Notes under the pieces: model-generated | What the model saw: the letters and a program-made list of their open reading frames with translations, nothing else | The model's database searches: none | Told to the model about the DNA's origin: nothing | Virus record (IMG/VR): IMGVR_UViG_3300021087_000047 | Coordinates: 1 to 32,408 of that record | Reading direction: 5' to 3' (one strand) | Source: a virus | Length of the DNA: 32,408 nt | Shown: piece by piece, positions 2,678 to 25,119 of the stretch | Position numbering within the stretch: the first letter of the stretch is position 1 | Layout of the letters: each line of letters starts with the position of its first letter | Position numbers and translations under genes: made by a program

Positions 2678-3032
2678 AATACTAAATACTCATTATCCAC
2701 TATTTGATGATGGACTTTATTCAGAAGTTGTACATGAAAGTGGTGAAAGAGCTATCAAGATTCTTAAAGGAAATTATAAGGATATAATTTATCAATATGG
2801 TAAAATAGAATTTGTTCCTAGAGCAGAATCAGAAACACCAACTATAAATTTTGATAGAGCTGTTAGATCGTGTCCAGAAGAAATGACGGATACAATATCT
2901 ACAGATAAAGAATTTAATCAACTTATGGGTGATATACTCATAGAATTATTGGCCAATGAAGGCTTAAAGGAATTGGAACATGGAATACAGCAAAGAGTTC
3001 AGACAAAGACTGACAAAAGAAATAACAAGTGA
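2661..3032 (+). CDS. phage protein, function unknown
   Basis: The 123-residue protein starts at GTG 2661 inside the preceding ORF; the first in-frame ATG comes much later, so GTG is the likely initiator. It is acidic, with an N-terminal beta-like region (residues 1-55: HYPLFDDGLYSEVVHESGER, then IKILKGNYKDIIYQYGKIEF) and a helical C-terminal half. No diagnostic motif was found. It overlaps the lysozyme gene by 53 bases, so the C-terminal codons are constrained in two frames. Co-transcription with lysozyme does not by itself indicate a lysis role. Confidence 0.7.
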   Translation: MAKEDEILNTHYPLFDDGLYSEVVHESGERAIKILKGNYKDIIYQYGKIEFVPRAESETPTINFDRAVRSCPEEMTDTISTDKEFNQLMGDILIELLANEGLKELEHGIQQRVQTKTDKRNNK

Positions 3033-7475: not shown

Positions 7476-8808
7476 AGAATATACTAGAAAAGTATTACCT
7501 TACATAAAATCAGAGTTCTTTTCAGAAAGGGACGAGGAGTTCCTATTTAAACAAATTAGTGATTACTTTTTAAAGTATAAATCTGTACCTACACCTGAAG
7601 CTTTAATCATTGACATTGATGAAAAAGATGATGTTGATGCTCAATTACTTCAAGAATCTATAAATCTTATTCAAGAAATAAAAACAGACACTTCAAATAC
7701 TCCTGATGAATGGTTAATTGATTCAACAGAAAATTGGTGTAAAGATAGAGCTGTTTATAATGGAGTAATGAGTTCTATTGAGATTATTCAATCTGATGGA
7801 TCCAAGGGAGAAATTCCTGAGATTTTAAGAGACGCTTTATCAGTATCTTTTGATACAAATATAGGACATGACTTTTTAGATGATTGGGAACCACGATATG
7901 ATTTTTATCATACAGAAGAAGAAAGAATTCCTTTTGATTTAGAATTGATGAATAAAATTACAAAAGGTGGATTACCTAATAAGACATTAAATATTTGTAT
8001 GGCTGGAACAGGTGTTGGTAAATCTTTGTTTATGTGTCATGTTGCCGCAAGTTGTTTACTTCAAGGTAAGAATGTTTTATATATCACTTTAGAAATGGCC
8101 GAAGAAAAGATTGCTGAAAGAATTGACGCTAATCTATTAGACATATCATTAAATGATTTAGATGATTTACCGAAGTCAATGTATAAAAAGAAAATTAAAA
8201 GAGTTCAAGAGAAAACAAAAGGAAAATTAATTGTCAAAGAATATCCAACAGCTACAGCTCATTCAGGACATTTCAGACATTTATTACAAGAATTAGATTT
8301 AAAGAAAGATTTTACACCTGATATAATATTCATAGATTATTTAAACATTTGTGCTTCATTCAGAGTTAGACCTGGTAGTAATGTAAATACATACACTTAT
8401 GTTAAGAGTATTGCAGAAGAATTAAGAGGATTAGCTGTTGAGTTTGATGTTCCGATTATGTCTGCTACTCAAACAAATAGAACAGGGTTCGTATCAACAG
8501 ATGTTGGATTAGAAGATACTTCTGAATCATTCGGATTACCTGCCACAGCTGACTTTATGTTTGCTCTGATATCTACAGAAGATTTACAAGAATTAGATCA
8601 AGTGATGGTCAAACAATTAAAGAATAGATACAATGACCCAACATATCATAGAAGATTTGTTGTGGGTGTTGATAGAGCTAAAATGAGATTGTTTGATTGT
8701 GAACAATCTGCTCAAGATGAATTAGTAGATATTGGTCCTGTCATGGATCAAACGGCTACAGGTGAGAGAATCACTGCAGAAAAGACAGAAGATTTTAAGT
8801 ATGACTAA
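7426..8808 (+). CDS. 41: replicative DNA helicase (DnaB-like, T4 gp41)
   Basis: The 460-residue protein is the 5'-3' hexameric helicase of the T4 replisome, partnering the gp61 primase encoded at 25949. It has an N-terminal helical domain (about 1-150), Walker A GTGVGKS (194-200) in the C-terminal RecA-like core, a DnaB-type TLEMAEE segment (221-227), and Walker B IIFIDY (300-305). The length is close to T4 gp41 (475). Start ATG 7426 lies inside uvsX. The TAA stop (8806-8808) is immediately followed by the first base of a tRNA gene, so the tRNA must be cut from the gp41 message. Confidence 0.95.
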
Positions 8809-8882
8809 GCGGGTTTGGTATAATGGTATTATAAAAGGTTTCCAATCTTTTGAAGGGAGTTCGATTCTCTCAACCCGCTCCA
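8809..8882 (+). tRNA. tRNA-Gly (anticodon UCC)
   Basis: A complete 74-base cloverleaf can be folded: acceptor GCGGGTT (8809-8815) pairs with AACCCGC (8872-8878); a D arm follows; the anticodon stem AAAGG/TCTTT holds loop TTTCCAA (8839-8845), giving anticodon TCC (8841-8843); the T arm is GGGAG-TTCGATT-CTCTC with one G-T pair; the discriminator is T and CCA is encoded (8880-8882). It reads GGA, a glycine codon favoured in AT-rich genes. It starts on the base after the gp41 stop codon and ends six bases before the next ATG. Confidence 0.95.
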
Positions 8883-8888
8883 TTTATT

Positions 8889-9677
8889 ATGTTATCTCTT
8901 AAACCGATTCATAAAATAACTTGTTCTGAATTTATAAGTGAAAGACATTATTCCGCTGTGATGCCAAGATTAACAAAACATTATATGGGTTGTTATCAAG
9001 ATGATGAATTAGTAGGTGCTATTACTTTTGGTTGGGGAACAAGACCCAAACATACAATACAAAAGTTATTTCCTGAACTAGACACTAAAGATTATTTTGA
9101 AATAGGAAAAATGTGTATGGACGATTCAATGCCTAAAAATTCTGAATCACAATTACTTTCTTTATCTATTAAATGGTTAAGAGAAAATACAGATATTAAA
9201 TATCTTTTTACATGGGCTGATGGATTAGTAGGAAAACCTGGTTATGTTTATCAAGCAGCTAACTTTCTTTATGGTGGCTTCTCTATGACAGATACTTATG
9301 TATCAGAGAATGGAGAGAAAATACACCCAAGAACTATACAAGGTATATTACCAAATGAAGATGGTTTAAAGTATGGACATAGACCTAATCCTCAACAATT
9401 AGTAGAACTTAAATTGAGTAGAGTTAAAGGTAAACAATTCAGATACATTTATCCTATGTCGAAAAAAGATAGAAAGTATTTGAAAAAATCAACAGTTAAA
9501 TGGGATTTGAATCACCCTAAACATTCTGATTTAGAGTGGAAAATAAAACTACCTGGTAAAAAAGATTATACACAAACTAAAAAGATGCCATTTGATTTAA
9601 CAAAAGATATGGAATATAACAAAAAGAATATTCAGTCTTATAAAAGTGAATCAAATTTAAATACTTTTTTTAGTTGA
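8889..9677 (+). CDS. Mom-like DNA modification protein (GNAT-fold acyltransferase)
   Basis: The 262-residue protein resembles phage Mu Mom, which modifies adenines in phage DNA and blocks host restriction. Visible family features are the N-terminal HYSAVMP motif (20-26), ELVGAITFGWGTRP (40-53), YFEIGKMCM (69-77), D111, and the YQAANFLYGGF segment (121-131). As I recall, an Asp and a Tyr ten residues apart are catalytic in Mu Mom; D111 and Y121 fit that spacing. The C-terminal 100 residues are a basic extension of unknown role. ATG 8889 is used because the open frame upstream lies inside the tRNA. The assignment is by eye; the substrate and actual modification are unknown. Confidence 0.72.
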   Translation: MLSLKPIHKITCSEFISERHYSAVMPRLTKHYMGCYQDDELVGAITFGWGTRPKHTIQKLFPELDTKDYFEIGKMCMDDSMPKNSESQLLSLSIKWLRENTDIKYLFTWADGLVGKPGYVYQAANFLYGGFSMTDTYVSENGEKIHPRTIQGILPNEDGLKYGHRPNPQQLVELKLSRVKGKQFRYIYPMSKKDRKYLKKSTVKWDLNHPKHSDLEWKIKLPGKKDYTQTKKMPFDLTKDMEYNKKNIQSYKSESNLNTFFS

Positions 9678-9709: not shown

Positions 9710-10213
9710 ATGAAAAAAGATAAAAAAGTAAGACAATTATTCATTGATATGGACGGTGTTTTAGCTGACTTTGAGAATGGACTTTCAGAAGTTTTAGGAC
9801 ACAAAGTTAGATTATCTGATGTTAAAGATGTATATGACGAAAGGAAAAGGGAAGTCACTTCTAAACACTTGTTCAGAAGATTGAAACCTCTTCCAGATGC
9901 TTGGAAATTAGTCGATTGGGCTTTAAATTCAGGTATTCATACAGAAATATTAACAGCAGCTGGTACAATAAATAGAACTATAGTTATCAAAGATAAAATA
10001 GACTGGATTAAAGAATATTGTACAGATCATTGGATCATAATTCCAACATTTAAAGGTAGTCAAAAAGCAGCATTTGCTCATAGTAAAGCAGTATTAATTG
10101 ACGATAGACCTAGAAATATTGAATGTTGGGTAGAAGCAGGTGGTATTGGAATACTCCATACTACAGCAGATGATACAATAAAACAATTAAATGACATTAT
10201 CAACGCAGAATAA
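9710..10213 (+). CDS. 5'(3')-deoxyribonucleotidase (HAD superfamily, NT5C-like)
   Basis: The 167-residue HAD phosphatase dephosphorylates deoxynucleoside monophosphates and could tune dNTP pools alongside NrdA/NrdB. HAD motif I is DMDGV (13-17) with nucleophile D13 and acid/base D15; motif II is around T82; a lysine near 119 fits motif III; motif IV is D131-D132 in LIDDRPRN. The start is ATG 9710, not an upstream in-frame ATG at 9674 that would lie in the -35 of class A promoter 3. No Shine-Dalgarno sequence is present, consistent with leaderless initiation. It overlaps the next ORF by 23 bases if that starts at 10191. Confidence 0.88.
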   Translation: MKKDKKVRQLFIDMDGVLADFENGLSEVLGHKVRLSDVKDVYDERKREVTSKHLFRRLKPLPDAWKLVDWALNSGIHTEILTAAGTINRTIVIKDKIDWIKEYCTDHWIIIPTFKGSQKAAFAHSKAVLIDDRPRNIECWVEAGGIGILHTTADDTIKQLNDIINAE

Positions 10214-10408: not shown

Positions 10409-12541
10409 ATGAAACCTTTTCTTGAAGTAATCACAGAACAATCCCCTAATGATAAGCTTGATAAGCTTACACATAACATACCTTTATCTACAAAGAGATT
10501 AAAACAGTTAAATAACTTTTCTGATCTTGCTTTAATGTTTGATTTTGAAGGTTGGCAGGGGTATCCACCTCCAAGTAATTCATCAAAAGTTGCTTTTGAT
10601 GAAATTCAATATCTAATTGGATTACAAGAATTCCGTGATCAATGGGAAACAGATATGAGAATGCATGACACAAAAGTAATAAAAGCATTCAGAAAGTATG
10701 TTGACAAACATAATTTAGAAGTTGATTTAGACGAAATTAAAAGAATTTCAGATCAAGCAGATTCAATTATATTATCACTTAAAAGATTTTATAACAGACC
10801 TAGACCAAAAGTGTTAGCTAACAAGTTGGGTTTAGGTTTTTCATTTTTTCCATTAAAGACAGCAGAAACACCTTCTTATCCATCAGGACACGCAACTCAT
10901 GGAAGATTGGTGGCTAAATTAGTAGCTGATGAAGTTCCATTTGAACATAGAAGAAATATAATAAGAATGGGAGAAGATATAGGTGAAGGCCGAATGATAG
11001 CTGGAGCACATTATCCTACTGATACAAATTTTGGACATTTATTAGGAGATGAATTATATAGATTAGCAAAATCATCTTCATCAGAATTAAAATTAGAGAC
11101 TTTAGGAGAAATGACACAAACTGCATTACAACAAAAAATAGCTGATTTAGACCCCGGCTTAGATGTACATTCAACAACAAAAAGAATAGCTAATACTGGT
11201 GATATGTCAAACAAAGACTTTGAAAAAATACTTAAAGACAAGTTAGATGCTAAGAATGTAAAACTTATTAATCCTAGAACAGGAAAAAATAAGAGTGCAG
11301 TATTTGATATGTTTGAATTTGAAATTGAAGGAGATGATAAAGTATATGATATAACATTAGCAGGTAAAGTAGCTGGTAGAAGTTCACAAGGAACATCAGA
11401 TAATGAAACATCATTTTTACTTGTTTTAGCAGCCAGACAAGCTGGTGCTAAAGATGATATAGAAGATATAGCTATTAAAATGATAGACCCGAATGTTTAT
11501 GGCAAAGTATCTAACGGAAAAGGAATAATAGGAGAAGAACAAGCTAAAAAATTACTAGCTTATGTAGAAAATAATGAGAGTTGGTTTACTTCTCATAGAT
11601 TACAAGTTAATGCATTACTGAAAGCAATAGGTAAAAATATTCCGAAATTATATGTAAAAGATGACAGTTCATTAGATGTTAATACACAAGCCGTAGACTT
11701 ATATAAACAAGATTTTGGATTAAGTATAGCTAGGTCTTTAGATAAATGGAATCCAGCAGATGTATGGTTATATTATGACAGAAAAGTTCCTGACCATTCT
11801 AATTTAACAGCGTTAAATATGTATTTGTATTATTCAATTAAGTCTGCACAAGGTGTTATAGGCATATCTCTTAAAAAGGGATCAGGTATATTAGGATATA
11901 AAAATTATCACGAACCTGATAAAATACATTTAAAGAAAGTAGATTTAAAAATGTCAGCATTAGGCTCATTATCAGGTACATTAGCATTTGTAGGTGATGG
12001 TGTTGATGGTATGAGTTTAGGATTTAGAATTTTTGATGCAAAAGATACTGGTTTAATTAGAGGAGAAGGTGAGAAGAAAGGAGCAGAAGCAGTTCAAGGT
12101 AAAGTGGCGTTAGAGTTATTAGATACTTTTACAGGTAAGAGATGGAAAAATGACATAACTAGTGCTGGTGGTGCAGATATATTAGAATTAAAGAAAGGTA
12201 AATGGTCATTTACTACAAATGGAAAGAAGAAATTTAAAACAGCTAAAGCTAATTGGACATTTATATCTAGAAGAACAAATTTGACATTTGCTAGAGGAGC
12301 TAGTAAAATGAACCATAGTAATGCATTTAGAAGTGAAAATACATTTTTAAAATGGTTAGATAAACAAGATAAAAAGGAGAATGCAGGAAAGGCATGGGTT
12401 AATTCTAAGTTTCAAGTATTAGAATTATTTTCTAAATTACATAGTATGTCTCAAATTGAAGAAAAGAAATTAGCATTCGCTTTATTAAAATACGCGAAGT
12501 CTGAATCAGAATGGTCAGCAGCACATTTAAAGTTAGAGTAA
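10409..12541 (+). CDS. PAP2-family phosphatase fused to a nuclease-like domain, putative virion protein
   Basis: This 710-residue protein starts FLEVITEQ, like a capsid-targeting peptide with an I-x-E site at 8-10. Residues 90-220 carry the three PAP2 acid-phosphatase motifs: K125-x6-R132-P133, PSGH (158-161), and R195-x5-H201-x3-D205, with both catalytic histidines present. PAP2 enzymes release phosphate from lipids or small phosphoesters. Residues 320-500 contain E333, NPADVW with D451, and IGISLKK with S487-x-K489, an arrangement reminiscent of PD-(D/E)XK nucleases whose last motif is S-x-K; this second call is tentative. The C-terminus has beta-like and then helical segments of unknown role. 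No membrane segment is seen, so the phosphatase domain is probably soluble. The next gene starts two bases downstream. Confidence 0.75.
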   Translation: MKPFLEVITEQSPNDKLDKLTHNIPLSTKRLKQLNNFSDLALMFDFEGWQGYPPPSNSSKVAFDEIQYLIGLQEFRDQWETDMRMHDTKVIKAFRKYVDKHNLEVDLDEIKRISDQADSIILSLKRFYNRPRPKVLANKLGLGFSFFPLKTAETPSYPSGHATHGRLVAKLVADEVPFEHRRNIIRMGEDIGEGRMIAGAHYPTDTNFGHLLGDELYRLAKSSSSELKLETLGEMTQTALQQKIADLDPGLDVHSTTKRIANTGDMSNKDFEKILKDKLDAKNVKLINPRTGKNKSAVFDMFEFEIEGDDKVYDITLAGKVAGRSSQGTSDNETSFLLVLAARQAGAKDDIEDIAIKMIDPNVYGKVSNGKGIIGEEQAKKLLAYVENNESWFTSHRLQVNALLKAIGKNIPKLYVKDDSSLDVNTQAVDLYKQDFGLSIARSLDKWNPADVWLYYDRKVPDHSNLTALNMYLYYSIKSAQGVIGISLKKGSGILGYKNYHEPDKIHLKKVDLKMSALGSLSGTLAFVGDGVDGMSLGFRIFDAKDTGLIRGEGEKKGAEAVQGKVALELLDTFTGKRWKNDITSAGGADILELKKGKWSFTTNGKKKFKTAKANWTFISRRTNLTFARGASKMNHSNAFRSENTFLKWLDKQDKKENAGKAWVNSKFQVLELFSKLHSMSQIEEKKLAFALLKYAKSESEWSAAHLKLE

Positions 12542-12542
12542 T

Positions 12543-13730
12543 ATGGAATTTTTAACAGAAGCAGCAGGAAAGAACTTACATTTAGAACATCTTGAAGATG
12601 AGATTCTAAATTTTGGTATTGCTGGTGGAAGGAGTTCAATACAATTTCTACAAGCATTACGAGATATGTTTAAAGGTGGTTCTGGATCAAAATTAAATGT
12701 AACAGTTAAATGGGATGGAGCACCAGCTGTATTCGCAGGGCCGCATCCAGAAACGGGCAAATTCTTTGTAGCTACAAAAAGTTTATTCAGGAAACGCAAG
12801 GCAGACACAGCTTATTATCATACAAACGCAGATATAGATGCAGATAAATCTGGAGAGTTAGCTGCTAAACTAAAAGTATGTTTAGCAGAGTTTAGTAAAT
12901 TGGGTATGAGAGACATATTACAAGGTGATTTAATGTTTACAGATGATGTTTCAACAATGGATATAGATGGAGAATCATATTATACATTTCAACCAAATAC
13001 AATTTTGTATGCTGTAGCTAAAGATAGTAAATTAGGTAAAGCAATTAACTCAGCCAAGATAGGTGTAGTTTGGCATACGACATATAAAGGTGATTCAATA
13101 GAAAATTTAAAAGCTTCTTTTGGAGCTAGAATACCAAGTAAATCAACTGCAGTATGGCAAGATGATGCTAAATATAAAGATGTCTCTGGTAAAGCTAACT
13201 TCACAGCAGCAGATACAGTAAGAGTAACTAATTTATTATCACAAGCAGGTAAACAATTTCAAAGAATAGATTCTGTTAGTTTCAATGCATTTCTTAGATG
13301 GCAAGACACAGTTCCACCAGGAGTCGGGTTTAAAAGTTATCTAAATACATATACAAGAGCTGGAAAACCTTTACCAGCTTCTGGAAAAGCTGTACAAATG
13401 TATTTTAAACATTTTAACGATTGGTGGCTTAAAAACAAAGATGAAAAGAATTTAAAAATGCATTTAGCAGAAATCAGAAAAGCTACAACAGCATTAAAAA
13501 ATGTAGTAGATTTTATGAGACTTCTATTACAAGCTAAAATGATGATTGTTCAAAAATTAAATGATGCTAAAGGAATAGCTAGAACTTTTGTTAAAACTCC
13601 AACAGGATTAAAAGTTGTCAACCCAGAAGGGTATGTCGCGATTGACAAAACAGGTGGAGCTGTTAAAATAGTAGATAAATTAGAGTTTAGTTTTAATAAC
13701 TTTACAGTAGCAAAGAATTGGGATAAGTAA
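12543..13730 (+). CDS. ligase-like covalent nucleotidyltransferase, putative virion protein
   Basis: The 395-residue protein begins MEFLTEAA, with an L-x-E site at 4-6. Motif I of the ATP-ligase/capping superfamily is KWDG (56-59), K56 being the expected AMP-binding lysine. FVATKSLF (75-82) and GDLMF (128-132) fit the downstream core. EGYV (362-365) matches motif IV and AVKIVDK (373-379) motif V, although the distance between motifs III and IV is unusually long, about 230 residues. I recall this family as a domain of unknown function in marine T4-like phages. Whether it joins DNA or RNA, or transfers a nucleotide to protein, is unknown. Its stop TAA overlaps the next ATG by one base. Confidence 0.7.
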   Translation: MEFLTEAAGKNLHLEHLEDEILNFGIAGGRSSIQFLQALRDMFKGGSGSKLNVTVKWDGAPAVFAGPHPETGKFFVATKSLFRKRKADTAYYHTNADIDADKSGELAAKLKVCLAEFSKLGMRDILQGDLMFTDDVSTMDIDGESYYTFQPNTILYAVAKDSKLGKAINSAKIGVVWHTTYKGDSIENLKASFGARIPSKSTAVWQDDAKYKDVSGKANFTAADTVRVTNLLSQAGKQFQRIDSVSFNAFLRWQDTVPPGVGFKSYLNTYTRAGKPLPASGKAVQMYFKHFNDWWLKNKDEKNLKMHLAEIRKATTALKNVVDFMRLLLQAKMMIVQKLNDAKGIARTFVKTPTGLKVVNPEGYVAIDKTGGAVKIVDKLEFSFNNFTVAKNWDK

Positions 13731-14905
13731 TGAGTGCAAAAGATCAAACAAATTTTATAAAACTTGCAGCTAAGGGTTTTAAAGCTATGGCTAAGTCTGT
13801 AAGTTTTGATGTAGAATTAAAAAAACTAGCTTTAGATGCAGCTAAGTTTGCAAGGAAAGGTTATCTAACATTTCAGAATTGGTTTCAAAAATTACCTTAT
13901 GAGGATAAGTTAGCATTAGGTGGTGAATTATCTTTTTTTACGAGACAAACAGATAAGACTATAGAGAAGATGTTGAAATTTAAATTTGAACAGAAAGAGC
14001 TAAAAGATTTTAAAGATATAACAGAGGATGCGGATAAAGGAGCTACATTTACATTTGGTAGATTTAATCCACCAACAGTTGGTCATGTTAAGTTAGCCAC
14101 TAAGATGAAATCAGTTTCATCAGGACATGATGTTTTAATATATACTACTCACACAATAGACAAGACAAAGAATCCATTAACAAATGCTCAGATACGAAAG
14201 TTTATGAATCCTATGTTACCAAGAGGTATTAGTGTACAAACATCTGCTTCTAGAACAGTATTTGATGTTCTAGTAGATTTATATGATAATGGGTATAGAT
14301 ATATTCAAATGGTTGTTGGATCAGATAGAATAATGGAGTTTGACAAATTATTAAATAAATATAATGGAGTTAAATCAAGACACGGATATTATAATTTTAA
14401 ATCAATTAAAGTTGTATCAGCTGGAGACAGAGATCCAGATGCAGAGGGAGCAGCAGGTATGTCAGCATCTAAAATGAGACATCTGGCTTATTCAGATCAA
14501 GAAGATGAATTTATTAAAGCTTTGCCTAGAGGTTATAGATTAGGTAAACAATTATATTCAGCAGTGAGAAAAGGAATGGGTATAACAGAAGATTTTCCAG
14601 ACTTTATGTTGAGTGAAGTATATACTGACACCCATGTTCCACAAGTACATGAATGGGGTTCACAAGAAGGTAGAGAGTATGCACAAGACTTTACACCATA
14701 TGAACCTGTAGTTGATTGGAGAAAAATATCATCATGGAGAGAACAAGAAGATTTACCTAAAAAAGTATTAGCCTATAAAGAAAAGATGTACAAAGAATTA
14801 AAATCAGAGAGAGATGATTTCACAAAAAGATATGGTGAAAGAGCTGATGAAGTAATGCACGCAACAGCAATGACAATGGCTAAAAGGAAATATGGATATA
14901 CTTAA
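13730..14905 (+). CDS. HxGH-type nucleotidyltransferase with extra N- and C-terminal domains
   Basis: The 391-residue protein has a helical N-terminal region (1-96), an I-x-E site at 97-99 (DITED), and then a Rossmann-type nucleotidyltransferase with GRFNPPTVGH (110-119) and the second motif MSASKMR (244-250), as in NMN adenylyltransferases and cytidylyltransferases. THTIDKTKNPL is a signature I recall from related phage proteins. Further L/I-x-E sites follow the domain (ITE 285-287, LSE 294-296), so the enzyme core is bracketed by candidate prohead-protease sites. The substrate is unknown; NMN, nicotinate mononucleotide or a sugar phosphate are possible. It overlaps the kinase gene by 14 bases. 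Confidence 0.8.
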   Translation: MSAKDQTNFIKLAAKGFKAMAKSVSFDVELKKLALDAAKFARKGYLTFQNWFQKLPYEDKLALGGELSFFTRQTDKTIEKMLKFKFEQKELKDFKDITEDADKGATFTFGRFNPPTVGHVKLATKMKSVSSGHDVLIYTTHTIDKTKNPLTNAQIRKFMNPMLPRGISVQTSASRTVFDVLVDLYDNGYRYIQMVVGSDRIMEFDKLLNKYNGVKSRHGYYNFKSIKVVSAGDRDPDAEGAAGMSASKMRHLAYSDQEDEFIKALPRGYRLGKQLYSAVRKGMGITEDFPDFMLSEVYTDTHVPQVHEWGSQEGREYAQDFTPYEPVVDWRKISSWREQEDLPKKVLAYKEKMYKELKSERDDFTKRYGERADEVMHATAMTMAKRKYGYT

Positions 14906-15629
14906 TTACAAAGAAGATGATTTAGTTTTAGATGAAGGGGTTAATGATCCTGGAATATTTAAGGCGATTATACTAGCAGGTGGTCCTGGTAGTGGTAAGT
15001 CTCATATAGCTAAGAAATTAGGATTAGGCACAATGGGTTTAAGAGTAGTTAATTCTGATGCATTTTTTACTATGTTATTGAAAAAGAAAGGTCTTTCATT
15101 AAAGATGCCAGCCGATGAAAATGAAGAAAGAGAAGCGGCTAGAATGGCAGCTAAAGCCTTAACAGATAGACTATTATCAACAACTATTGATGCTAGATTA
15201 GGAATACTTGTTGATTCAACATCAGGAGATCAAAAAAAGACTGTAAATATAATAGCCAAGTTAAAAGCAGTAGGTTATGATGTTAAAGTAATATTTATAG
15301 AAACAAGTTTAGAAACAGCACAAAAAAGAAATCAGCAACGATCAAGAACATTACCACCTACAGTTGTAGATTTTTCTTGGAAGGGAGCTCAGAAAGTAAA
15401 ACCACTCTTAAAGAGATCGGTAGGTACTTTAAATTATCACGAAATAGAAAATGAATTTGATGGAAAAGTAGATGTATCCCTAGCAGGTAAATTAACAACA
15501 TGGGCAACTAAACTTCCAATTAAAGGTCAATTATGGGTAGCAGCTGTTAAAAGAGGACAAGATTCTATGACTACAGAAACCATAAATACCAGTATAAGAT
15601 CATTTTATCAGTTTTGGAGTAAACAATAA
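14892..15629 (+). CDS. P-loop kinase (polynucleotide kinase/zeta-like AAA_33 fold)
   Basis: The 245-residue protein has Walker A GGPGSGKS at 30-37, an NSDAFF segment (DxD-like substrate pocket) shortly after, LVDSTSG as a likely Walker B region, and an ETAQKRNQQRSR arginine-rich lid. This order fits the kinase family including polynucleotide kinases, zeta toxins and chloramphenicol phosphotransferase; sequence reading cannot choose the substrate. An L-D-E-G site at 13-16 lies just before the P-loop domain, so prohead-protease trimming would leave the kinase intact. It follows a ligase-like and a nucleotidyltransferase gene in one overlapping operon, which suggests nucleic-acid end processing. 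Its last base is shared with the next ATG. Confidence 0.8.
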   Translation: MDILNYKEDDLVLDEGVNDPGIFKAIILAGGPGSGKSHIAKKLGLGTMGLRVVNSDAFFTMLLKKKGLSLKMPADENEEREAARMAAKALTDRLLSTTIDARLGILVDSTSGDQKKTVNIIAKLKAVGYDVKVIFIETSLETAQKRNQQRSRTLPPTVVDFSWKGAQKVKPLLKRSVGTLNYHEIENEFDGKVDVSLAGKLTTWATKLPIKGQLWVAAVKRGQDSMTTETINTSIRSFYQFWSKQ

Positions 15630-16474
15630 TGACAATAGCAACAACTAATGTAGGTGTAGCAGCAGTTAGAGCCGAATTAGGTCTATCATATTCTGCAGGA
15701 GATAATATATCATTATCAGATATGAATACAAAACATATTGCTGTTGACCTTAGCAACACAACTGATTCAAGATTCACATTAACTAAAAGAGCAGGTATCA
15801 CAATGACTACTGATGATGTTGCTACTTCAAATCAAAATGCATTAACTTCTAATCCATCAAGTCTTGGAGAATGGAGAAGCTATGATTATGTTAATCCGAT
15901 AGTATTCAGTTCTTATGGTGCATCTTATGCAAATGAAGATCAAACAGTTCAAGGTGAACTTGCAAGTTTTTCAACTAGTGGTTGTATAGGATATGGAATA
16001 AAAAATAGTGTAGAACTTTATTGTAAGAGAGTAGGTAATGATATAGTTTGGTATGGTGGAGAAGGAAGGTGGGGATCAACTCATACTACTAGTACAGAAG
16101 GTGGTGCTGTTATTACTTCTGATACAGAGGTAGCTAGATTAGCCGGTGCAGCGACAACAAGTTCAACAGGTGACACGACAGTTTCAGTTGCTATTAGTAC
16201 AGCTTATAATTCCTGGAATATTTTTACAGCAGGACCTGCAAATACATCTTCTGGTTCAACAAACTCACAATTAACATCAACAAATACAAAAGTGGGGTAT
16301 GAAAGTTATACATCAGGATATTCTGATTGTATCGCAGGTGGTGCATATAATGTCCATCGGTGGGCAAATGATTTTACAGTTACGCCTGTTGGAATGAATG
16401 CAAGAGTTTTTAGATTTTATACAGGTTATAGTATATATGCAATAACTCAAACACATGGCAGTGATTGTTGTTAA
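15629..16474 (+). CDS. Ser/Thr-rich virion structural protein, probably tail-fibre related
   Basis: This 281-residue protein is rich in S, T, G and A and almost free of lysine in its second half, typical of beta-rich fibre proteins. The N-terminus contains VRAELGLSYSAGDNISLSDM, a pattern I recall near the start of many phage tail-tip and fibre proteins. GEWRSYDY (residues 85-92) and a TTSTEGGAVITSDTEVARL stretch follow. Six cysteines include a final CC. No enzyme motif is present. Its place after the kinase and before small structural genes fits late expression. The exact virion position cannot be told. Confidence 0.7.
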   Translation: MTIATTNVGVAAVRAELGLSYSAGDNISLSDMNTKHIAVDLSNTTDSRFTLTKRAGITMTTDDVATSNQNALTSNPSSLGEWRSYDYVNPIVFSSYGASYANEDQTVQGELASFSTSGCIGYGIKNSVELYCKRVGNDIVWYGGEGRWGSTHTTSTEGGAVITSDTEVARLAGAATTSSTGDTTVSVAISTAYNSWNIFTAGPANTSSGSTNSQLTSTNTKVGYESYTSGYSDCIAGGAYNVHRWANDFTVTPVGMNARVFRFYTGYSIYAITQTHGSDCC

Positions 16475-16483
16475 GGAAATAAT

Positions 16484-16843
16484 ATGTTACATTTACACAA
16501 AGATTTAGAAATACACAGAGATCATACAGGTAAAAGTCAAACTGTTACAGTTTCTTGTAAATGTTATAGTGATTATGTTACTAAAACTGTATCTTTTCCA
16601 GAATCAGGTGATCCTGATATTCCAGAACCTACTGTTGATATAGAAATAACAGATTTTGATAGCATGACATTAAGAGGACAAATTGATGTTGAGTGGTTTG
16701 TACCAGATGAATTAGCAATAACAGGGACTTCTAGAAATGATGTTGCAAAGGCTAGAGCTTCTTGGACAGAATCATTTAACTCATATCAACCAATTATAAA
16801 CGCAGAAAAACAATTATTAACAGATTGTGCTGAATTTGATTAA
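16484..16843 (+). CDS. phage protein, function unknown (probably structural)
   Basis: AAGGA lies nine bases before ATG 16484, a good ribosome-binding site. The 119-residue acidic protein starts MLHLHKDLEIHRDHTGKS, has a beta-like TVTVSCKCYSDYVTKTVSF segment with a C-x-C pair and a DPDIPEP linker, and ends in a helix. It lies ten bases after the Ser/Thr-rich protein gene and may be its chaperone or partner, a common fibre arrangement, but this is inference. Confidence 0.65.
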   Translation: MLHLHKDLEIHRDHTGKSQTVTVSCKCYSDYVTKTVSFPESGDPDIPEPTVDIEITDFDSMTLRGQIDVEWFVPDELAITGTSRNDVAKARASWTESFNSYQPIINAEKQLLTDCAEFD

Positions 16844-16863
16844 CAAGTATCAGCATAGAAAAT

Positions 16864-16879
16864 TATAAATACATAAATA
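16864..16879 (+). promoter_or_regulatory. tandem late promoters (TATAAATA and CATAAATA)
   Basis: TATAAATA at 16864-16871 is followed immediately by CATAAATA at 16872-16879, both matching the T4 late -10 consensus. They lie in the gap before ATG 16902, which has its own GAGG ribosome-binding site, so here a normal leader of about 17-25 bases is expected, unlike the other late promoters. Confidence 0.65.
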
Positions 16880-16901
16880 GAATTAACAGAGGATAAAAAC
16901 A

Positions 16902-17177
16902 ATGTCACCATGGAAACCAATCACAACTGAAGCAGCTCTAGGAGTAAATACAGGAGCAGCATCTAATGTAGGAAGTAGTCGTTATGTACGATTATTAAAC
17001 ACAGCAGCTGTTGGAACAGAACATTTAGTAACTTTAGAACAATCAGGTGGTACAGATATAGGTACTTTTAGTCTAGAGGGACAACAAGAGGTTATCATTC
17101 AGAAAGACCCTTCCGATCAACTATTCGCAGCCAACGCGGCTGTAATGGCTGTTGGAATAGCAATCAATTCAAATTAA
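16902..17177 (+). CDS. small beta-rich structural protein
   Basis: The 91-residue protein begins MSPWKPITTEAALGVNTGAA, then has a beta-rich VRLLNTAAVGTEHLVTLEQ region and an EVIIQKDPSDQLFA segment. I recall short proteins with this PITTEAA start near structural genes of marine T4-like phages. ITTEAA resembles, but does not satisfy, the I/L-x-E cleavage rule seen in neighbours. GAGG precedes the ATG and a double late promoter lies upstream, supporting abundant late expression. It could be a decoration or fibre-adaptor protein; this is not resolved. Confidence 0.7.
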   Translation: MSPWKPITTEAALGVNTGAASNVGSSRYVRLLNTAAVGTEHLVTLEQSGGTDIGTFSLEGQQEVIIQKDPSDQLFAANAAVMAVGIAINSN

Positions 17178-17181
17178 TAAA

Positions 17182-19851
17182 ATGTCTGGACACATAGTAA
17201 ACGATTTTAAAGACCTGCGTAGTTTAATAACCGCAGTTACAAAAGCTAACCCAGCTAAAACTACTCGCCAACAAAACGAGAAAAAAATGGGTATTCATAA
17301 AGAAGATGAAGCACAACCCATAGACGATAAGAAACCAAAAGAGAAAAAGTTTCATGCTGGTGAGGAAGAAATTAAAAGAGCATATCTAAATTTAGGTAGA
17401 GCAGCACAAGGTTCTCTTGAATATCAAAGAAAATTACTTCAAAAAGAATTAGCTAAAATGGGTTTCAAAACTTATTCTCAGTTTGCATTTGATGCAATCT
17501 TTAAGTTTGAACAGAAAGATAAGAAAAAGAAATGGAAAGAACCTTTAAAAGGCTTTCCTGGAAATGAAGAAATTGATGAAAACATTCAACTTGAGAGTGC
17601 TCTTTCAGATATGCAAGATATTGTTAAGACTAAAGGTGCTAAGAAAATTGGTGGTGTAATGGTTGATATGTTTACTGCTAGTGTTATAACAAACGCTTAT
17701 AATAAAGTAAGTGACGCGAACAAAAAGAAGTTGGAAACAGCTAATCTTCAAACTTTAGTTAAACTAGCACACAAGATTATGGGTATGAAAGAAGAACTCA
17801 ATCTAGACGAAGGTAAAATGAGTGATCTTCTTATTGATATTCAACAAGGTGCTACAGCTAAAGAGTTAGCTAGAGATTTTAATATATCTTTAGCAACAGC
17901 TAAGAATTTCCTTAAAGACTATTACGGACAAAAGAAAGGTTCAAGAAAGGAAGAAGTTGAAGAATCTGTCAATGAGAGTAATTGGGGATTTGTATTCTAT
18001 AATAAGAAATCTTTAGACAATTTCCTTAAAGACCCATATATCAAAAGTGTGACAAAAAATGTTACGATAGACAAAGCAAAATTCAGAGGTGGTAAGAGTG
18101 GATTTGATGTTGGTATTGAATCAGATGCAGATTTAGGCCTTAATCCTTTAGCCAAAAAAGTAGATGCAATTAAGAAGAAATACGGAAAGCCTGGAGTTGA
18201 TTATGCTCATGTTGAACATGACGGTGAATCAATTAGTGAAGGCACATGGGCAGTTCCAGATTCATACAAAAAACTTTACAACTTACAAGTAGGTTTCTTA
18301 GCTATGAAAAAGGCTGCTACTGAACTTAATTCAAGAAAACTTTTAGTAGACCTATATAGTATTTTTGGTGATGATTCATTCTATGATGATGTTGAAAAAT
18401 ATATTGATACTCCCGATCCTAAATTTGATTTAAGAGATTTAATTGTCAAACACTTAACACCATTCGGACTTAAATTCAATAGTAGCTACAAAATAACTCA
18501 TGCTCCAAAAGATTGGATTGATAATCTAGGAAAATCAGAATCAAAAATTGAAGAAAGACTTATCGAAGGAAAACCAAGAAGAGGTAGAGGAAACATTAAA
18601 AGACCTAAGGGTAAAGTAGTTCCTTTAACAATGAGTAAAGAAGATAAACTTAAAGAACAAAAAGAACAAGCTCAAGAGTCTCCATTCAAATTAAAATCAC
18701 AACAATATCCAAGAGCAGTAGCAATTAATACTGATGGATTTGGAAAAAGACACGCGACAGTTGAAGATATTATAGCAGCATGCGACAGTTTTGGAATGAT
18801 ATTAGACAAAGAATTACAAGTAGAACAAATTCAAAAACAACTTGGGAAGGGTGGATTTATATCTTATAAACAAGTAGATTTAAATGATGTGTTTGAAGAA
18901 AGAGAAACACAAAGAATTATACTAGCATTAGAATCTACTGTAGAAACACAAGAGCCTATTGAATATACAAAATATGAAATAACAGAAGCGTATATTATGG
19001 GCGAAGAAATAGAATTTGTAAAACCAGATGGATATAAAACAGCTGGACCAGTATTAAAGAAAGGTGGAAATACTTTTAATGTAAAAGATAAATTTACAGG
19101 TAAGTCTTTCACCTATAAATATATAAACGAGGAACAAGAGGTGAAAACATTTACAGAAGTAATCAACGAAGTATCTATTGGAGACGCTGGAATTAGAAAA
19201 GACTTTCCTAATGTATGGGCTCAGAAAGATAAAAGAATGAACAAAATTCTAATGGCATTAGTTAATCTGCATGGGTATGTAGATAATCTAAAATCTTATA
19301 AAAAAGATAAAAAAGGTTTTGTTGATTCTCTAAAGAGAATTGGTAAGAATGATGCAGGATTAAAGAAAGCAGGTCTTACTAAAAGAGAAATTGGAGAAGA
19401 TATTCAAGAAGGTAGATTTTCAAAACAACTTATTAAACAAGCGGGTGGAATAGCCTTTGATAAGAGATATTACATGGGTAATATGACAGGCGCTATTAAT
19501 GCTATAGAGAAATTAAAGAAAGGATTATCTGATGATCCTAAAGTTAAAGAGATGTTAAGAATTGCAAATGAAGGCAATGAAACAACAGACTATACTAATT
19601 GGCTACCAGAAGGTGGTGATAAAGAAGCATATCAGAAATTCTTCAATGCAGCTTTAAAGAAATTTGGTGTTAGTTCACCAGATGAATTAGAAGGTGATAA
19701 GAAGAAAGAATTCTTTGATTATGTTGATAAGAATTGGAAAGGCGATCATGAAGAAAAAGAACAAGATGTTCATAAATCTTACAAAATGGATGGCCGAAGA
19801 AAGAATTTTAAAGAGAAGATGAGAAAACTCGGATACATTAAGGGTAGATAA
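17182..19851 (+). CDS. 889-residue multidomain virion protein, candidate prohead-processed polyprotein
   Basis: No single family is recognised. The protein is highly charged and mostly helical, with repeated acidic joints that match the T4 prohead protease rule (I/L-x-E): L208-D-E210/G, I351-S-E353/G, L460-I-E462/G, I600-T-E602/A, I661-N-E663/V and I741-Q-E743/G. Residues 655-664 (VKTFTEVINEV) look like an internal capsid-targeting peptide. Between joints are compact segments: 211-245 helix-turn-helix-like (ATAKELARDFNISLATAKNF), 266-350 alpha/beta, 354-450 helical, and 664-889. The end contains KKFGVSSPDELEGDKKKEF, a stretch I recall in head or structural proteins of marine phages. It may be an internal head protein set made as one chain. 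Confidence 0.7.
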   Translation: MSGHIVNDFKDLRSLITAVTKANPAKTTRQQNEKKMGIHKEDEAQPIDDKKPKEKKFHAGEEEIKRAYLNLGRAAQGSLEYQRKLLQKELAKMGFKTYSQFAFDAIFKFEQKDKKKKWKEPLKGFPGNEEIDENIQLESALSDMQDIVKTKGAKKIGGVMVDMFTASVITNAYNKVSDANKKKLETANLQTLVKLAHKIMGMKEELNLDEGKMSDLLIDIQQGATAKELARDFNISLATAKNFLKDYYGQKKGSRKEEVEESVNESNWGFVFYNKKSLDNFLKDPYIKSVTKNVTIDKAKFRGGKSGFDVGIESDADLGLNPLAKKVDAIKKKYGKPGVDYAHVEHDGESISEGTWAVPDSYKKLYNLQVGFLAMKKAATELNSRKLLVDLYSIFGDDSFYDDVEKYIDTPDPKFDLRDLIVKHLTPFGLKFNSSYKITHAPKDWIDNLGKSESKIEERLIEGKPRRGRGNIKRPKGKVVPLTMSKEDKLKEQKEQAQESPFKLKSQQYPRAVAINTDGFGKRHATVEDIIAACDSFGMILDKELQVEQIQKQLGKGGFISYKQVDLNDVFEERETQRIILALESTVETQEPIEYTKYEITEAYIMGEEIEFVKPDGYKTAGPVLKKGGNTFNVKDKFTGKSFTYKYINEEQEVKTFTEVINEVSIGDAGIRKDFPNVWAQKDKRMNKILMALVNLHGYVDNLKSYKKDKKGFVDSLKRIGKNDAGLKKAGLTKREIGEDIQEGRFSKQLIKQAGGIAFDKRYYMGNMTGAINAIEKLKKGLSDDPKVKEMLRIANEGNETTDYTNWLPEGGDKEAYQKFFNAALKKFGVSSPDELEGDKKKEFFDYVDKNWKGDHEEKEQDVHKSYKMDGRRKNFKEKMRKLGYIKGR

Positions 19852-19853
19852 AG

Positions 19854-20276
19854 ATGAGTTGGACACAACCAGGACAAGGATTTTTACGAGAAGTTTATTT
19901 AGAAGAAGCTCTTGGCACAATAAGACTAGGACAGTTAAAAGCCTTTAACGGGACTGTTCCTTTAGTTTTTAAACGAACTTCAGGAAAAGATGGTGGATTT
20001 CAAGAATATGATCTTGTTGGTAAATATAAACAAGCTTTATATATGACACTTGATGAACCGAACAAAGAAATCATGGTTTATTTGAATGTGGGTGATAACA
20101 ATTTAGATGATCTTACAACGGATATGTTTCCTAAAAAATATCACGATGCAGATGATACTGATTGGGAGTCTCAAAAACTTCAATGGAAGTTTTTTGACAT
20201 ACCAATGGAAAAAGAGATTGCTAAAGCAGTTAAAAGACAGTATCCAAAATTTAAATTTAAGCTTGGCGATAGTTAG
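19854..20276 (+). CDS. virion-associated protein with prohead-cleavage-like N-terminus
   Basis: The 140-residue protein starts two bases after the previous stop. Its N-terminus, FLREVYLEEALG, includes L16-E-E18, a candidate prohead protease site, and resembles the TYLSEVALG start of the protein at 21377. The remainder is alpha/beta (VPLVFKRTSGKDGGFQEYDL, KEIMVYLNVGDNN) with a basic end. No enzyme motif is visible. The shared N-terminal pattern and the operon suggest an internal head or head-associated protein. Confidence 0.65.
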   Translation: MSWTQPGQGFLREVYLEEALGTIRLGQLKAFNGTVPLVFKRTSGKDGGFQEYDLVGKYKQALYMTLDEPNKEIMVYLNVGDNNLDDLTTDMFPKKYHDADDTDWESQKLQWKFFDIPMEKEIAKAVKRQYPKFKFKLGDS

Positions 20277-20278
20277 CC

Positions 20279-20734
20279 ATGATTAATGAAGGTAGAAAAG
20301 CACCAGATTTGGGCATGCCTTCACAAGCGGGCAACAATCTTCTCTATGATTTAGTTAAAAAAGCTAAGTCAGAAAGAGAATTACTTAGTATGATTGACAA
20401 ATTAGCACTCAAGTTGGGTGGTAAATACAAAGATGCTAAGGACGAACTTATAACGAGAGCTGCAGTAGATGCATTTGACCAGAAAGGAAACAAAGGTCAA
20501 CAAGGTGTTTCAGACAGACAAGTTCAAGTTCAAATTGGAAGTGCAGCTGATTTATCAGGAGGCGGCACTATTAAATTAAATGATAAGAGTTCAATTAAGA
20601 TTGATCAGCGAACAGCTAAGAAAGTTTTAAAGAACTTGATGAACTTAAAACCTGCTCAGCGTGGTGATGTAACAAAAGCTATGCAGAAAGATAAAAACGG
20701 GTTTAATAAGTTCTTAAAAATACTAAATAGATAG
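20279..20734 (+). CDS. helical basic virion-associated protein
   Basis: The 151-residue protein begins MINEGRKAPDL, where I2-N-E4 is a candidate prohead protease site at the extreme N-terminus. The body is helical and basic, with a glycine-rich loop (LSGGGTIKLNDKSSIKI, about 94-110) and a C-terminal helical segment (TAKKVLKNLMNLKPAQRGDV). Basic charge would suit contact with packaged DNA. It starts three bases after the previous gene. No homologous family is recognised. Confidence 0.65.
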   Translation: MINEGRKAPDLGMPSQAGNNLLYDLVKKAKSERELLSMIDKLALKLGGKYKDAKDELITRAAVDAFDQKGNKGQQGVSDRQVQVQIGSAADLSGGGTIKLNDKSSIKIDQRTAKKVLKNLMNLKPAQRGDVTKAMQKDKNGFNKFLKILNR

Positions 20735-20764
20735 TATAATAATATTTTATTGGGAGATAAAACA

Positions 20765-21361
20765 ATGCCAATATGGGGAGCAACAGATTCAGACGAGTCT
20801 AAACCTAAACATTTGACAACAGCTCAAAAGAAAGAAGTATTCGCAAACGCAAGTGGGTGGGTAGTTGAAGCTGGTTCTACACAATCTGGGAACGACAACA
20901 CAAGTGCCGATCCAGAGATTTTAGTAGCAATCGGATCACTAGCAACATCATTGGGTGCAGCAGATATTACTGAAATTGATTGGATAACTACAGCAGCAGA
21001 CAAATCTGAAGGATTTAGTCTTTCTGTTAGAGTATTCTTTAACGAGCCAGTAGATGTTGATGTAACAAGTGGAGTACCATACTTAGCTATAACCAACAGT
21101 AATGCTGGTTCTGGTTCAGGTCGTGGACCACACAACTTACCTTATGTAAGTGGAACAGGTACTAATGAATTAGTATTCACATTAGCAATAGCAGCAGCTA
21201 ACGCAGCTACAAATGCTGATGATGTATTGAGTGTAGGAACCAATGCTATGAACTTAAATTCAGGTACAATCAAAGATGCTGGACAAACTGCAGTTGATAC
21301 AACTATTACTAATAGTTCAACTATTGGAACAGCAGCTGGTACAATAACAGTTACAGCATAA
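20765..21361 (+). CDS. structural protein with SwmB-like beta domain
   Basis: ATG 20765 is chosen because GGGAGA precedes it; the frame extends only five codons upstream to a TTG. The 198-residue protein begins MPIWGATDSDESKPKHLT with a KKEVFANASGWVV stretch, a start I recall as common to structural proteins of marine T4-like phages. Residues 85-180 (FSLSVRVFFNEPVDVDVTSG, YLAIT, YVSGTGTNELVFTL, GTIKDAGQTAVD) match the layout of SwmB-type immunoglobulin-like repeats found in surface adhesins, so a role in surface display or host contact is plausible. The C-terminal part is Thr/Asn-rich. Confidence 0.75.
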   Translation: MPIWGATDSDESKPKHLTTAQKKEVFANASGWVVEAGSTQSGNDNTSADPEILVAIGSLATSLGAADITEIDWITTAADKSEGFSLSVRVFFNEPVDVDVTSGVPYLAITNSNAGSGSGRGPHNLPYVSGTGTNELVFTLAIAAANAATNADDVLSVGTNAMNLNSGTIKDAGQTAVDTTITNSSTIGTAAGTITVTA

Positions 21362-21376
21362 TTTTAGGTTAAGATA

Positions 21377-21790
21377 ATGAAAAGCTTTAAAACATATTTA
21401 AGCGAAGTAGCTTTAGGCACCGGAACAGCTGGAATTACAGCTGACGGTGATTTTGACTTTCATAGAATGGACCAAGATGATGTAAAAGCCAGAGTTAATA
21501 CCTGGCTTTCAGCTAATATGCAAATGGAGTTCGCTACAGTTAATGCGGCTCTTATTCAATTAGCTAAAAAAGTACAACAACTTGGTATTTCTTTTGATGT
21601 ACAAGTAGAAGCGGCAGGCGATAGTGGATCGCTTCGAATACCTTTATCGGTATTCGGTGAAAAGGCAGATCCAACAGGAAACTATGTTGACAATTATGGT
21701 TCAACAATTCCAGAAAATCTAGTATTGGATATTCAATACGAGAAAATGCCTACTGGTGGATTTAGAGTATCAGGTAATATTCAGCAATAA
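21377..21790 (+). CDS. virion-associated protein with capsid-targeting-like start
   Basis: The 137-residue protein starts MKSFKTYLSE/VALG. This closely resembles the T4 internal-protein targeting peptide, which as I recall begins MKTYQEFIAEA, and the L8-S-E10 site fits the prohead protease rule. The body is alpha/beta with a predicted helix (EFATVNAALIQLAKKVQQLG) and a DSGSLRIPLSVFG strand pair. No enzyme motif is visible. It is the last member of the late cluster bearing such a start, and is a good candidate internal head protein. Confidence 0.7.
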   Translation: MKSFKTYLSEVALGTGTAGITADGDFDFHRMDQDDVKARVNTWLSANMQMEFATVNAALIQLAKKVQQLGISFDVQVEAAGDSGSLRIPLSVFGEKADPTGNYVDNYGSTIPENLVLDIQYEKMPTGGFRVSGNIQQ

Positions 21791-24028: not shown

Positions 24029-24262
24029 ATGTCTAGATTATGGAATTTAATATTAGGTTTATTCATAAAACCAAAATATGAATTATGGGTAACTTATAAA
24101 CCTACTGATTGGGATGGTAAAAAGGAAACACATAAGTTTATAGTTAGGAAAAAGATTAAGATTACTCCAAAACATATTATTTTTAAGGATAATGACGAAA
24201 GAATAGTTGAGATTAAATCTCAAGAACCAATAGACTACATGATAAGGGAATTGTATGAGTAA
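24029..24262 (+). CDS. small protein, function unknown
   Basis: The 77-residue protein has a short hydrophobic N-terminus (LWNLILGLFI) followed by a small basic beta-rich domain (YELWVTYKPTDWDG, KFIVRKKIKITPKHIIF). The hydrophobic start could be a membrane anchor, or simply an amphipathic helix. It overlaps the inner-membrane spanin candidate by 8 bases, so it may belong to the lysis cassette. No family is recognised. Confidence 0.65.
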   Translation: MSRLWNLILGLFIKPKYELWVTYKPTDWDGKKETHKFIVRKKIKITPKHIIFKDNDERIVEIKSQEPIDYMIRELYE

Positions 24263-24641
24263 AGTATTAATGGGTATCATCTTTGTAATGGGAATAGGAT
24301 CCTATTTCCTTTATCAACAGTATGAAACAGTAAAGGCTGAGAACATGGCTTTAACATTTGCTGTGGAAGAACAGAAAAAAACAATAGAAGTAATCAAAGA
24401 GAACTTTGAAAGACAGGGGAAAGCCTTGAACAATCTAACAGCTAGAAATGCTGAGATTGAAGGTGAAATGACTAGATACTTAGACATATTCAAAAGACAT
24501 AATTTGAATAAGTTAGCAATAGCTAAACCAGGTCTAATTGAAAAGAGAGTAAACGATGGAACAGCGAAAATATTCATCACGATTGAAAATGACAGTAAAA
24601 TGCTTGACAATCTTGACGATGCTTCCACTACTAATAATTAG
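24255..24641 (+). CDS. inner-membrane spanin (Rz-like)
   Basis: The 128-residue protein has a type II signal-anchor (LMGIIFVMGIGSYFLY, residues 5-20) followed by a periplasmic coiled coil (about 25-85, KAENMALTFAVEEQKKTIEV and onward). This is the layout of Rz-type i-spanins, which fuse inner and outer membranes at lysis. The decisive context is the lipoprotein gene beginning within it in another frame, the classic overlapping Rz/Rz1 arrangement. The peptidoglycan step would come from the lysozyme at 2980, far away in the genome. Confidence 0.82.
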   Translation: MSKVLMGIIFVMGIGSYFLYQQYETVKAENMALTFAVEEQKKTIEVIKENFERQGKALNNLTARNAEIEGEMTRYLDIFKRHNLNKLAIAKPGLIEKRVNDGTAKIFITIENDSKMLDNLDDASTTNN

Positions 24642-25119
24642 TGGTTGTGCATCAAAACAAGTAGAAGTAATATCTAAACCTATAGAGATTGAGATCATTC
24701 AACCTACTATGCCTAGGTCTATTGATCTAAAGGATCCTAGATGGTTTGTCGTTAGTGAAGCTAAGATATCTAATCCTTGTAATAAGAATCCAGAGGGTAA
24801 AAGAGACTGTACTCTTGGTAAAGAACACCCTGATTGGCCAGATGGCTATACATATCTAGACAGATTTCTAGATGACATTAAGAAATTAAATGGTGGAGAT
24901 GTGGTCTTTGTTGCAATGACAATAGACGATTATGAACTAATGAGTTTCAATATGCAAGAACTAAGACGATATTTAAGAGAAGTTCAAGAGGTTGTCATCT
25001 ACTACAGAAATGTAACTATTAAAAACCCAGATGGATCAACAACAAAAGGTGTTGGTGCTACAAATGGTGATGATTCAAAAAGACCAACAATCGGTCTATT
25101 TCCAAGAGATAAAGATTGA
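24556..25119 (+). CDS. outer-membrane lipoprotein spanin (Rz1-like)
   Basis: The product has a signal peptide and lipobox (LLIISGC, cysteine 31 when started at ATG 24556). GAGAG precedes that ATG; an alternative ATG at 24589 would give a shorter signal peptide. It overlaps the i-spanin gene by 86 bases. The mature region of about 157 residues is much longer than lambda Rz1 and contains DPRWFVVSE and DDYELMSFNMQELRRYLREV, with EVVIYYRNV after it; I recall this combination in o-spanin candidates of vibriophages and other T4-like phages. It lacks the proline-rich sequence of lambda Rz1. Lipidation at C31 and outer-membrane sorting are inferred. Confidence 0.8.
   Translation: MEQRKYSSRLKMTVKCLTILTMLPLLIISGCASKQVEVISKPIEIEIIQPTMPRSIDLKDPRWFVVSEAKISNPCNKNPEGKRDCTLGKEHPDWPDGYTYLDRFLDDIKKLNGGDVVFVAMTIDDYELMSFNMQELRRYLREVQEVVIYYRNVTIKNPDGSTTKGVGATNGDDSKRPTIGLFPRDKD

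Follow-up and report, generated by a model that had tools for sequence, protein, structure and literature searches.

Leader-like N-termini and putative prohead-protease sites on the enzymes of a T4-like marine phage gene cluster

Which proteins a T4-like marine phage packs into its head, and what marks them for packing, is the question raised by a gene cluster in the IMG/VR virus record IMGVR_UViG_3300021087_000047. The window analyzed here is the whole stretch of 32,408 bases, a T4-like marine phage fragment with the gene order polymerase, UvsX, helicase, cluster (9.7-24 kb), primase, NrdA, and NrdB. The original prediction, made from the sequence alone, held that at least seven proteins of a late cluster bear head-targeting N-termini and sites for a gp21-type prohead protease, and that they are packed, trimmed, and injected with the DNA. 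We consider it highly probable that the products of the cluster are internal head proteins, targeted by a leader, trimmed by the protease, and most likely ejected with the DNA. Packaging into the head is strongly supported and rests on homologues identified by others in virion mass spectrometry; cleavage at the putative sites is supported by their residue pattern, and injection into the cell is what we infer by analogy.

The T4 capsid-targeting leader has the form MxxFxx[FY][IL]xE and is cut after the E; IPII and IPIII both start with MKTYQEFIAE/A. Targeting depends mainly on residues 4 and 7 and processing on residues 8 and 10, gp21 cleaves after L/I-x-E, and a review has already proposed the leader as a means for T4-like phages to load varied proteins (PMC9026906). 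All seven peptides named in the prediction were found in the window, at the expected positions and on the + strand, but a full N-terminal leader of the register M-x-x-[FY]-x-x-[FY]-[IL]-x-E is present in two proteins: the 137-amino-acid protein of gene 21377-21790 (MKSFKTYLSE/V, E10; 21377..21406) and the PAP2-phosphatase protein of gene 10409-12541 (MKPFLEVITE/Q, E10; 10409..10438), the latter in the exact T4 register with V at position 7. The DUF6267 protein (MEFLTE/A, E6; 12543..12560), the kinase (MDILNYKEDDLVLDE/G, E15; 14892..14936), and the 151-amino-acid protein of gene 20279-20734 (MINE/G, E4; 20279..20290) have the cleavage half only. The start of the 140-amino-acid protein of gene 19854-20276 (GFLREVYLEE/A, E13 and E18; 19854..19907) is likewise a short or irregular form, and the site of the nucleotidylyltransferase (KDFKDITE/D, E99) is internal.

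The enrichment that had been expected of [IL]xE among residues 1-25 was marginal in the window (6/12 cluster proteins vs 6/30 others; Fisher p=0.06, shuffle p=0.018) and failed in the whole genome of cyanophage S-CREM2 (45 observed vs 46 in shuffles). As a criterion, this bare motif was dropped for lying at shuffle level in S-CREM2; alone it would make the finding weak. When a small or polar residue was demanded after the E, a criterion set post hoc, the counts became 6/12 and 2/30 (p=0.004). The claim holds instead because of the full T4 leader register and its conservation among relatives. Across 146 loci, mostly relatives in viral contigs, the stricter form of the leader, with MK, MR, or MQ as first residues, was found in 93 of 1882 distinct proteins, compared with a shuffle mean of 6.2 and a maximum of 12. 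Leader matches fall in 30 of the 763 protein families, and one leader is thus borne by unrelated bodies: S-adenosylmethionine (SAM) lyase, ADP-ribosyltransferase (ART), cytidylyltransferase, PAP2, kinase, and small proteins of unknown function. The leader-like share of distinct N-termini is 100% for the 21377 family, 79% for PAP2/10409, 65% for cytidylyltransferase, 34% for kinase, and 32% for DUF6267, whereas it is 0% for DNA polymerase, helicase, primase, NrdA, NrdB, and peroxiredoxin and 5% for UvsX. Eight whole phage genomes were also scanned with the register written as a DNA pattern, which gave 13 matches against 3 for an E-to-D control. The family of gene 21816, with 43% leader-like N-termini, was set aside as a false positive, since LNEE in its conserved N-terminus resembles part of the fold.

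The leader is kept while the protein bodies diverge to 27-50% identity. In the 21377 family, where full-length identity falls to about 27%, all 19 distinct N-termini retain it, and a leader of the same type starts h27 of Methylophilales phage Melnitz (MKNFKNHIAE/E). Relatives of the 10409 protein start with MK[ST]F..xIxE, and 27/34 of their distinct N-termini are leader-like, compared with 7% in shuffles. Behind this leader (10439..12541) lie a PAP2-type phosphatase domain at residues 122-213 (Pfam PF01569, E=2e-9) and a C-terminal half (phrog_1462) with 24.7% identity to ORF90 of S-SCSM1, which is annotated as a virion protein. In the DUF6267 family, [FYL][LI]xE/[AGDE] precedes the domain in 39/56 distinct homologue N-termini, and longer leaders occur in relatives of the window's protein (e.g., MIKFSSFLTE/D). 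The remaining homologues mostly start at the domain itself (MAGKN, MPSPN, MAKAN), and the leader therefore appears to act as a removable unit. The domain (gene 12543-13730; 12561..13730; PF19782, E=2e-92) has invariant KWDGAP and EGxV motifs (K56-W-D-G59 and E362-G), and it is possible that it is a nucleotidyltransferase/ligase-like enzyme. A fold search with Foldseek gave no match under E=0.3, and VIA-align 2 gave helical matches only (Z<7); the absence of a ligase from these results excludes nothing. The C-terminal strands are poorly modelled. The PDB held no close sequence relatives of either DUF6267 or the cytidylyltransferase. Relatives of the 20279 protein start with M[IL]xEG, x being N, S, T, R, D, or L, and the homologue at locus L066 starts with MRRYHPIIPE/G. 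For the 19854 protein, two informative relatives are too few to judge, and at L016 its leader of about 20 amino acids stands on a different body.

The site also occurs at borders between domains. In the protein of gene 13730-14905, KDFKDITE/D (14003..14026) lies in the linker between a helical domain of about 82 amino acids and the cytidylyltransferase core, and relatives start at this internal site (MKKFKDITE/A, MKTFKTITE/A, MKNFRNITE/V). In the structural model, residues 88-100 have a predicted local distance difference test (pLDDT) score under 50, a probably disordered linker around the site, with the catalytic domain downstream (residues 100-287; 14027..14590; phrog_395/3041). The best Foldseek matches were PPAT and NadD/NMNAT, with a target TM score of about 0.6, and the family has the invariant GRFNPPT.GH and SAS..R motifs of the NMNAT/PPAT superfamily; judged by motifs and predicted fold, the protein is an NMNAT/PPAT-type nucleotidylyltransferase. 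A second site, GITE/D (E287; 14579..14590), which is absent from the original list, ends the catalytic domain; relatives have G[IVL]xE with a free P2 (T, N, S, R, K, or Q), and residues 288-305 behind it are again predicted at pLDDT under 50. Among 40 distinct sequences of the family with an E shortly upstream of the core, as the pattern required, P3 is mostly I or L, and the cytidylyltransferases of S-RIM8, S-SSM5, and S-MbCM6 start with MKKFSAFLTE/A or MKKFSAFLSE/A. The P-loop kinase domain of gene 14892-15629 (Zeta-toxin/AAA_33 type; 14937..15629; PF06414, E=3e-15; PF13671, E=1e-12) is preceded by LVLDE/G. In 33 distinct homologues, E at P1 and G at P1' are invariant, P3 is L, I, V, or F, and P2 takes eight different residues; those from L137, L140, and L143 have the full leader (MKQFKSIIQE/G or MKQFKQVIQE/G).

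Each enzyme of the window has its own chain, and multi-enzyme polypeptides occur only in the relatives L141 and L143-L145, where kinase, PAP2, an NT-like domain, and cytidylyltransferase form one chain of 1181 amino acids that starts with MKQFKSIIQE/G. Every junction in it has xxE/[GSA]: IRE/S (226), LQE/S (428), and LKE/A (712). In L140, the segment that follows 428 (SIIDIPRR) opens a protein of its own, with the leader MIFRFKNFIKE/S ahead of it. The 889-amino-acid modular protein of the window (17182..19851), whose chain of sites the original list also lacked, has candidate sites LDE/G210, ISE/G353, LIE/G462, ITE/A602, and IQE/G743 near module borders; alignment blocks begin at about 204, 349-351, 471-485, and 735-741, and the modules are permuted in relatives, with the order swapped in L014. 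Over all loci, [ILV]xE[AGS] was found near homologue starts inside longer proteins in 54/190 cases, compared with 8% elsewhere, the junctions being partly dependent on one another. Overall, P3 is I, L, or V, P1 is nearly always E, and P2 is free. This pattern matches the T4 gp21 requirement and fits a protease site.

On these grounds, we suggest the following mechanism. A leader of about ten residues, M-K-x-F-x-x-[FY]-[IL]-x-E, equivalent to that of T4, would carry the protein into the prohead core. A gp21-type protease would then cut after the E of [ILV]-x-E, which would remove the leader and separate linker-joined domains. The freed PAP2 phosphatase, NMNAT/PPAT-type nucleotidylyltransferase, P-loop kinase, and ligase-like DUF6267 protein would be retained in the head alongside the DNA, and would most likely be ejected with it and be active ahead of phage gene expression. 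A candidate protease is at hand in relatives: gp21 is annotated in Melnitz and S-CREM2, and the record of L066 has a PF03420 match. Their capsid proteins have candidate sites at roughly the position of FLTE/A in T4 (FLSE/A in Melnitz, LLTE/A in S-CREM2, MISE/A in the phage of L066).

The alternative that survives best is a leader that serves as a docking tag, whether for the prohead core or for another assembly step, and is never removed, with xxE as part of a binding motif. Targeting and cutting are separable, as T4 with aspartate at position 10 still permits targeting (PMC9026906). However, P3 and P1 are constrained whereas P2 is free, and the site, with no tag attached, recurs at domain junctions and ahead of the kinase and 20279 domains and matches that of the capsid protein itself. 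We consider an uncut tag improbable.

It has also to be asked whether these are cytoplasmic enzymes of infection that adhere to particles, the conserved N-terminus being a structural element of each enzyme. Published virion proteomes of three related cyanophages bear on this question. Homologues of the 13730 protein (NMNAT/cytidylyltransferase) were detected by mass spectrometry in CsCl-purified particles of S-CREM2, S-SCSM1, and S-SZBM1. Among the 52 virion proteins of S-CREM2 (PMC10665884) are the leader-bearing cytidylyltransferase gp154 (MKNFSSFLTE/A), SAM lyase gp6 (MKDFDSFLEE), kinase gp14 (MKRFDAFLTE), gp13, and gp136 (MQTFSMFFSE). All four S-CREM2 proteins with the exact register and F/Y at position 4 were detected (p=0.003), and five of six when L is allowed there (p=0.003). 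The S-SCSM1 NMNAT (MKSFLQFLKE/A) lies in a syntenic cluster, seven genes of which are annotated as encoding virion proteins. In S-SZBM1, the cytidylyltransferase (MRFRQFIIE/A) was detected in the virion, whereas the adjoining leaderless DUF6267 protein (MAKNTHLEH) was not, which argues against sticking. A structural element is contradicted by a leader that is common to unrelated bodies, lies in segments predicted to be disordered (13730 residues 88-100, DUF6267 residues 1-11), and is missing from not quite one in three DUF6267 homologues, the majority of those without it beginning at the domain. The cluster does sit among replication genes, and the S-CREM2 and S-SCSM1 authors admit the possibility of carry-over; even so, we regard this explanation as very improbable. 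Least probable of all is chance or composition, in which fitting ones were picked from frequent acidic-hydrophobic tripeptides: the bare motif behaves in this way, but the full-leader count, the family comparison with its negative controls, and conservation despite diverged bodies do not, and chance is contradicted for 10409, 13730, 14892, 20279, and 21377, with 19854 left out for its few relatives.

Several points weigh against packaging with trimming and should be kept in view besides the possible carry-over mentioned above. Virions also contain many proteins of unknown function that have no leader, and several of the window's own proteins (12543, 14892, 19854, 20279, and, with an internal site, 13730) lack the targeting half at the N-terminus. 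The 32-kb fragment contains no head genes (gp21, portal, or capsid). Some regular expressions were fixed after a first look at the data, and neither the loci nor the junctions are all independent of one another. Apart from these points, the NMNAT reported in virions of S-CBWM1, a non-T4 cyanophage, has no such leader in its sequence, and another route would therefore be needed there. The claim of a T4-type leader with a prohead-protease site on enzymes is strongly supported by conservation, domain-junction placement, and the three proteomes of related phages, although the count and the test in the original prediction were overstated.

T4 Alt is a head-packed ADP-ribosyltransferase that gp21 processes and that enters the cell by injection. 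It resembles the present system as a head-packed enzyme cut by the prohead protease, and a parallel is found at L066, where a 146-amino-acid protein (8479-8919) joins the leader MKNFKSYITE/A to a probable ADP-ribosyltransferase domain (PF18760, E=6e-6, under the curated cut-off). The enzymes of the window differ, being phosphatase, nucleotidylyltransferase, kinase, and DUF6267, with no ART among them. T4 IPI, IPII, and IPIII (MKTYQEFIAE) share with the cluster the leader register, the cleavage motif, unrelated bodies behind one leader, and a gp21-type protease, found in its relatives. Those of the T4 proteins whose role is known are small and inhibit Type IV restriction enzymes (PMC12373910), whereas in these marine phages, which have other hosts, the tag is on enzymes and multi-enzyme chains. 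The fusions of L141 and L143-L145 resemble polyvalent proteins, in which several unrelated enzymatic domains share a phage protein thought to be injected; however, processing of the latter is ascribed mainly to a peptidase domain of their own (PMC5512222), whereas the fusions have a head-protease site at the junctions and their modules also exist as separate leader-bearing genes. The ejection proteins of phiKZ and SPN3US are also head-packed, and a prohead protease cuts them behind a short motif whose last residue is E (PMC9026906), but the protease is distant and the ejection proteins form a large bolus.

What is established in T4 comprises the leader, its protease, and injected internal proteins; virion NMNATs have been published for cyanophages. 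The papers on the latter propose carriage without a mechanism and, in the parts available, do not mention a targeting leader, and no paper joining the two was found in the open-access literature; one paper that speaks of the capsid targeting sequence names a cyanophage in a reference only. New, as far as could be seen, are the use of enzymes as cargo among marine T4-like phages and multi-enzyme chains whose every junction bears a head-protease site. They offer a mechanism by which cyanophage particles would come to contain NMNAT, kinase, and SAM lyase, detections for which the authors could not rule out carry-over. The leader register, together with [ILV]xE followed by a small residue at junctions, is a simple sequence rule predicting which proteins abundant marine T4-like phages carry into cells, and which enzymes a phage delivers ahead of its own gene expression is now a testable question. 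We speculate that the cargo set points to early work on NAD or nucleotides and on nucleic-acid ends. By analogy, the SAM lyase of S-CREM2 and the probable ADP-ribosyltransferase of L066 would fit early counter-defence and host take-over, as in the case of the T4 internal proteins and Alt (PMC12373910, PMC5512222). More broadly, we lean slightly toward the view that ocean T4-like phages use a portable leader and head-protease site as a plug-in system, by which enzymes (for NAD/nucleotide metabolism, RNA/DNA ends, SAM removal, and ADP-ribosylation) may be loaded into the head singly or as protease-cut chains and delivered before the phage genes are read.

The closest isolate found is Melnitz (Kyanoviridae), which shares the gene order and the type and place of the cluster. 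In S-SCSM1 and S-SZBM1, the homologous cluster is flanked on one side by the helicase or MazG region and on the other by the primase gene, and S-CREM2 retains part of it upstream of the primase gene. In isolated phages, there were no nucleotide matches to the cluster and no tblastn matches to 21377 or 10409. The description of the cluster as late was not borne out: late-promoter-like sites (TATAAATA) numbered 9 against 5.8 expected, with no enrichment, and the cluster sits between the replication helicase and primase/NrdA/NrdB. Adjacency to primase is also seen in T4 (NC_000866), where gp61.1 (18966-19130, -), a hypothetical protein of 54 amino acids that adjoins primase gene 61, has the leader-like start MKTFKEFIKE.

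Leader-like sequences were also observed elsewhere. The vicinity of terL is a second location of leader-bearing genes in cyanophages, with small proteins in S-SZBM1 (122311-123125, -), S-SCSM1 (44215-44535), and S-CREM2 (107301-108014) that start with MKSFKSFLSE, MKTFKQYITE, MKTFKQFMSE, or MQTFSMFFSE, one of them being lysine-rich like T4 internal proteins. ORF93 of S-SCSM1 (91626-91835), annotated as a virion protein, has a leader-like motif at its C-terminus (...KKKRTFKEFLEYIE). A protein of S-CREM2 annotated as Cas9-like (OR473000, 7704-10313, -) and detected in its virion matched no family in a Pfam search and has RFASFMAE/A in its N-terminal region. In Melnitz, a RimK-like ATP-grasp protein (L002, 78-1127) has the leader-like start MTQKFSQFITE/E; if it is packaged, a ribosomal-protein modifier could reach the cell at infection. 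The NT5C/HAD phosphatase at 9710-10213 of the window has no leader, whereas its homologue at L061 has MKTYNQLLVE/V immediately ahead of the domain. Judging by the gene list, 2980-3477 is a lysozyme-like gene, and two overlapping frames at 24255-25119, the second with a lipoprotein-like start, resemble Rz/Rz1 spanins.

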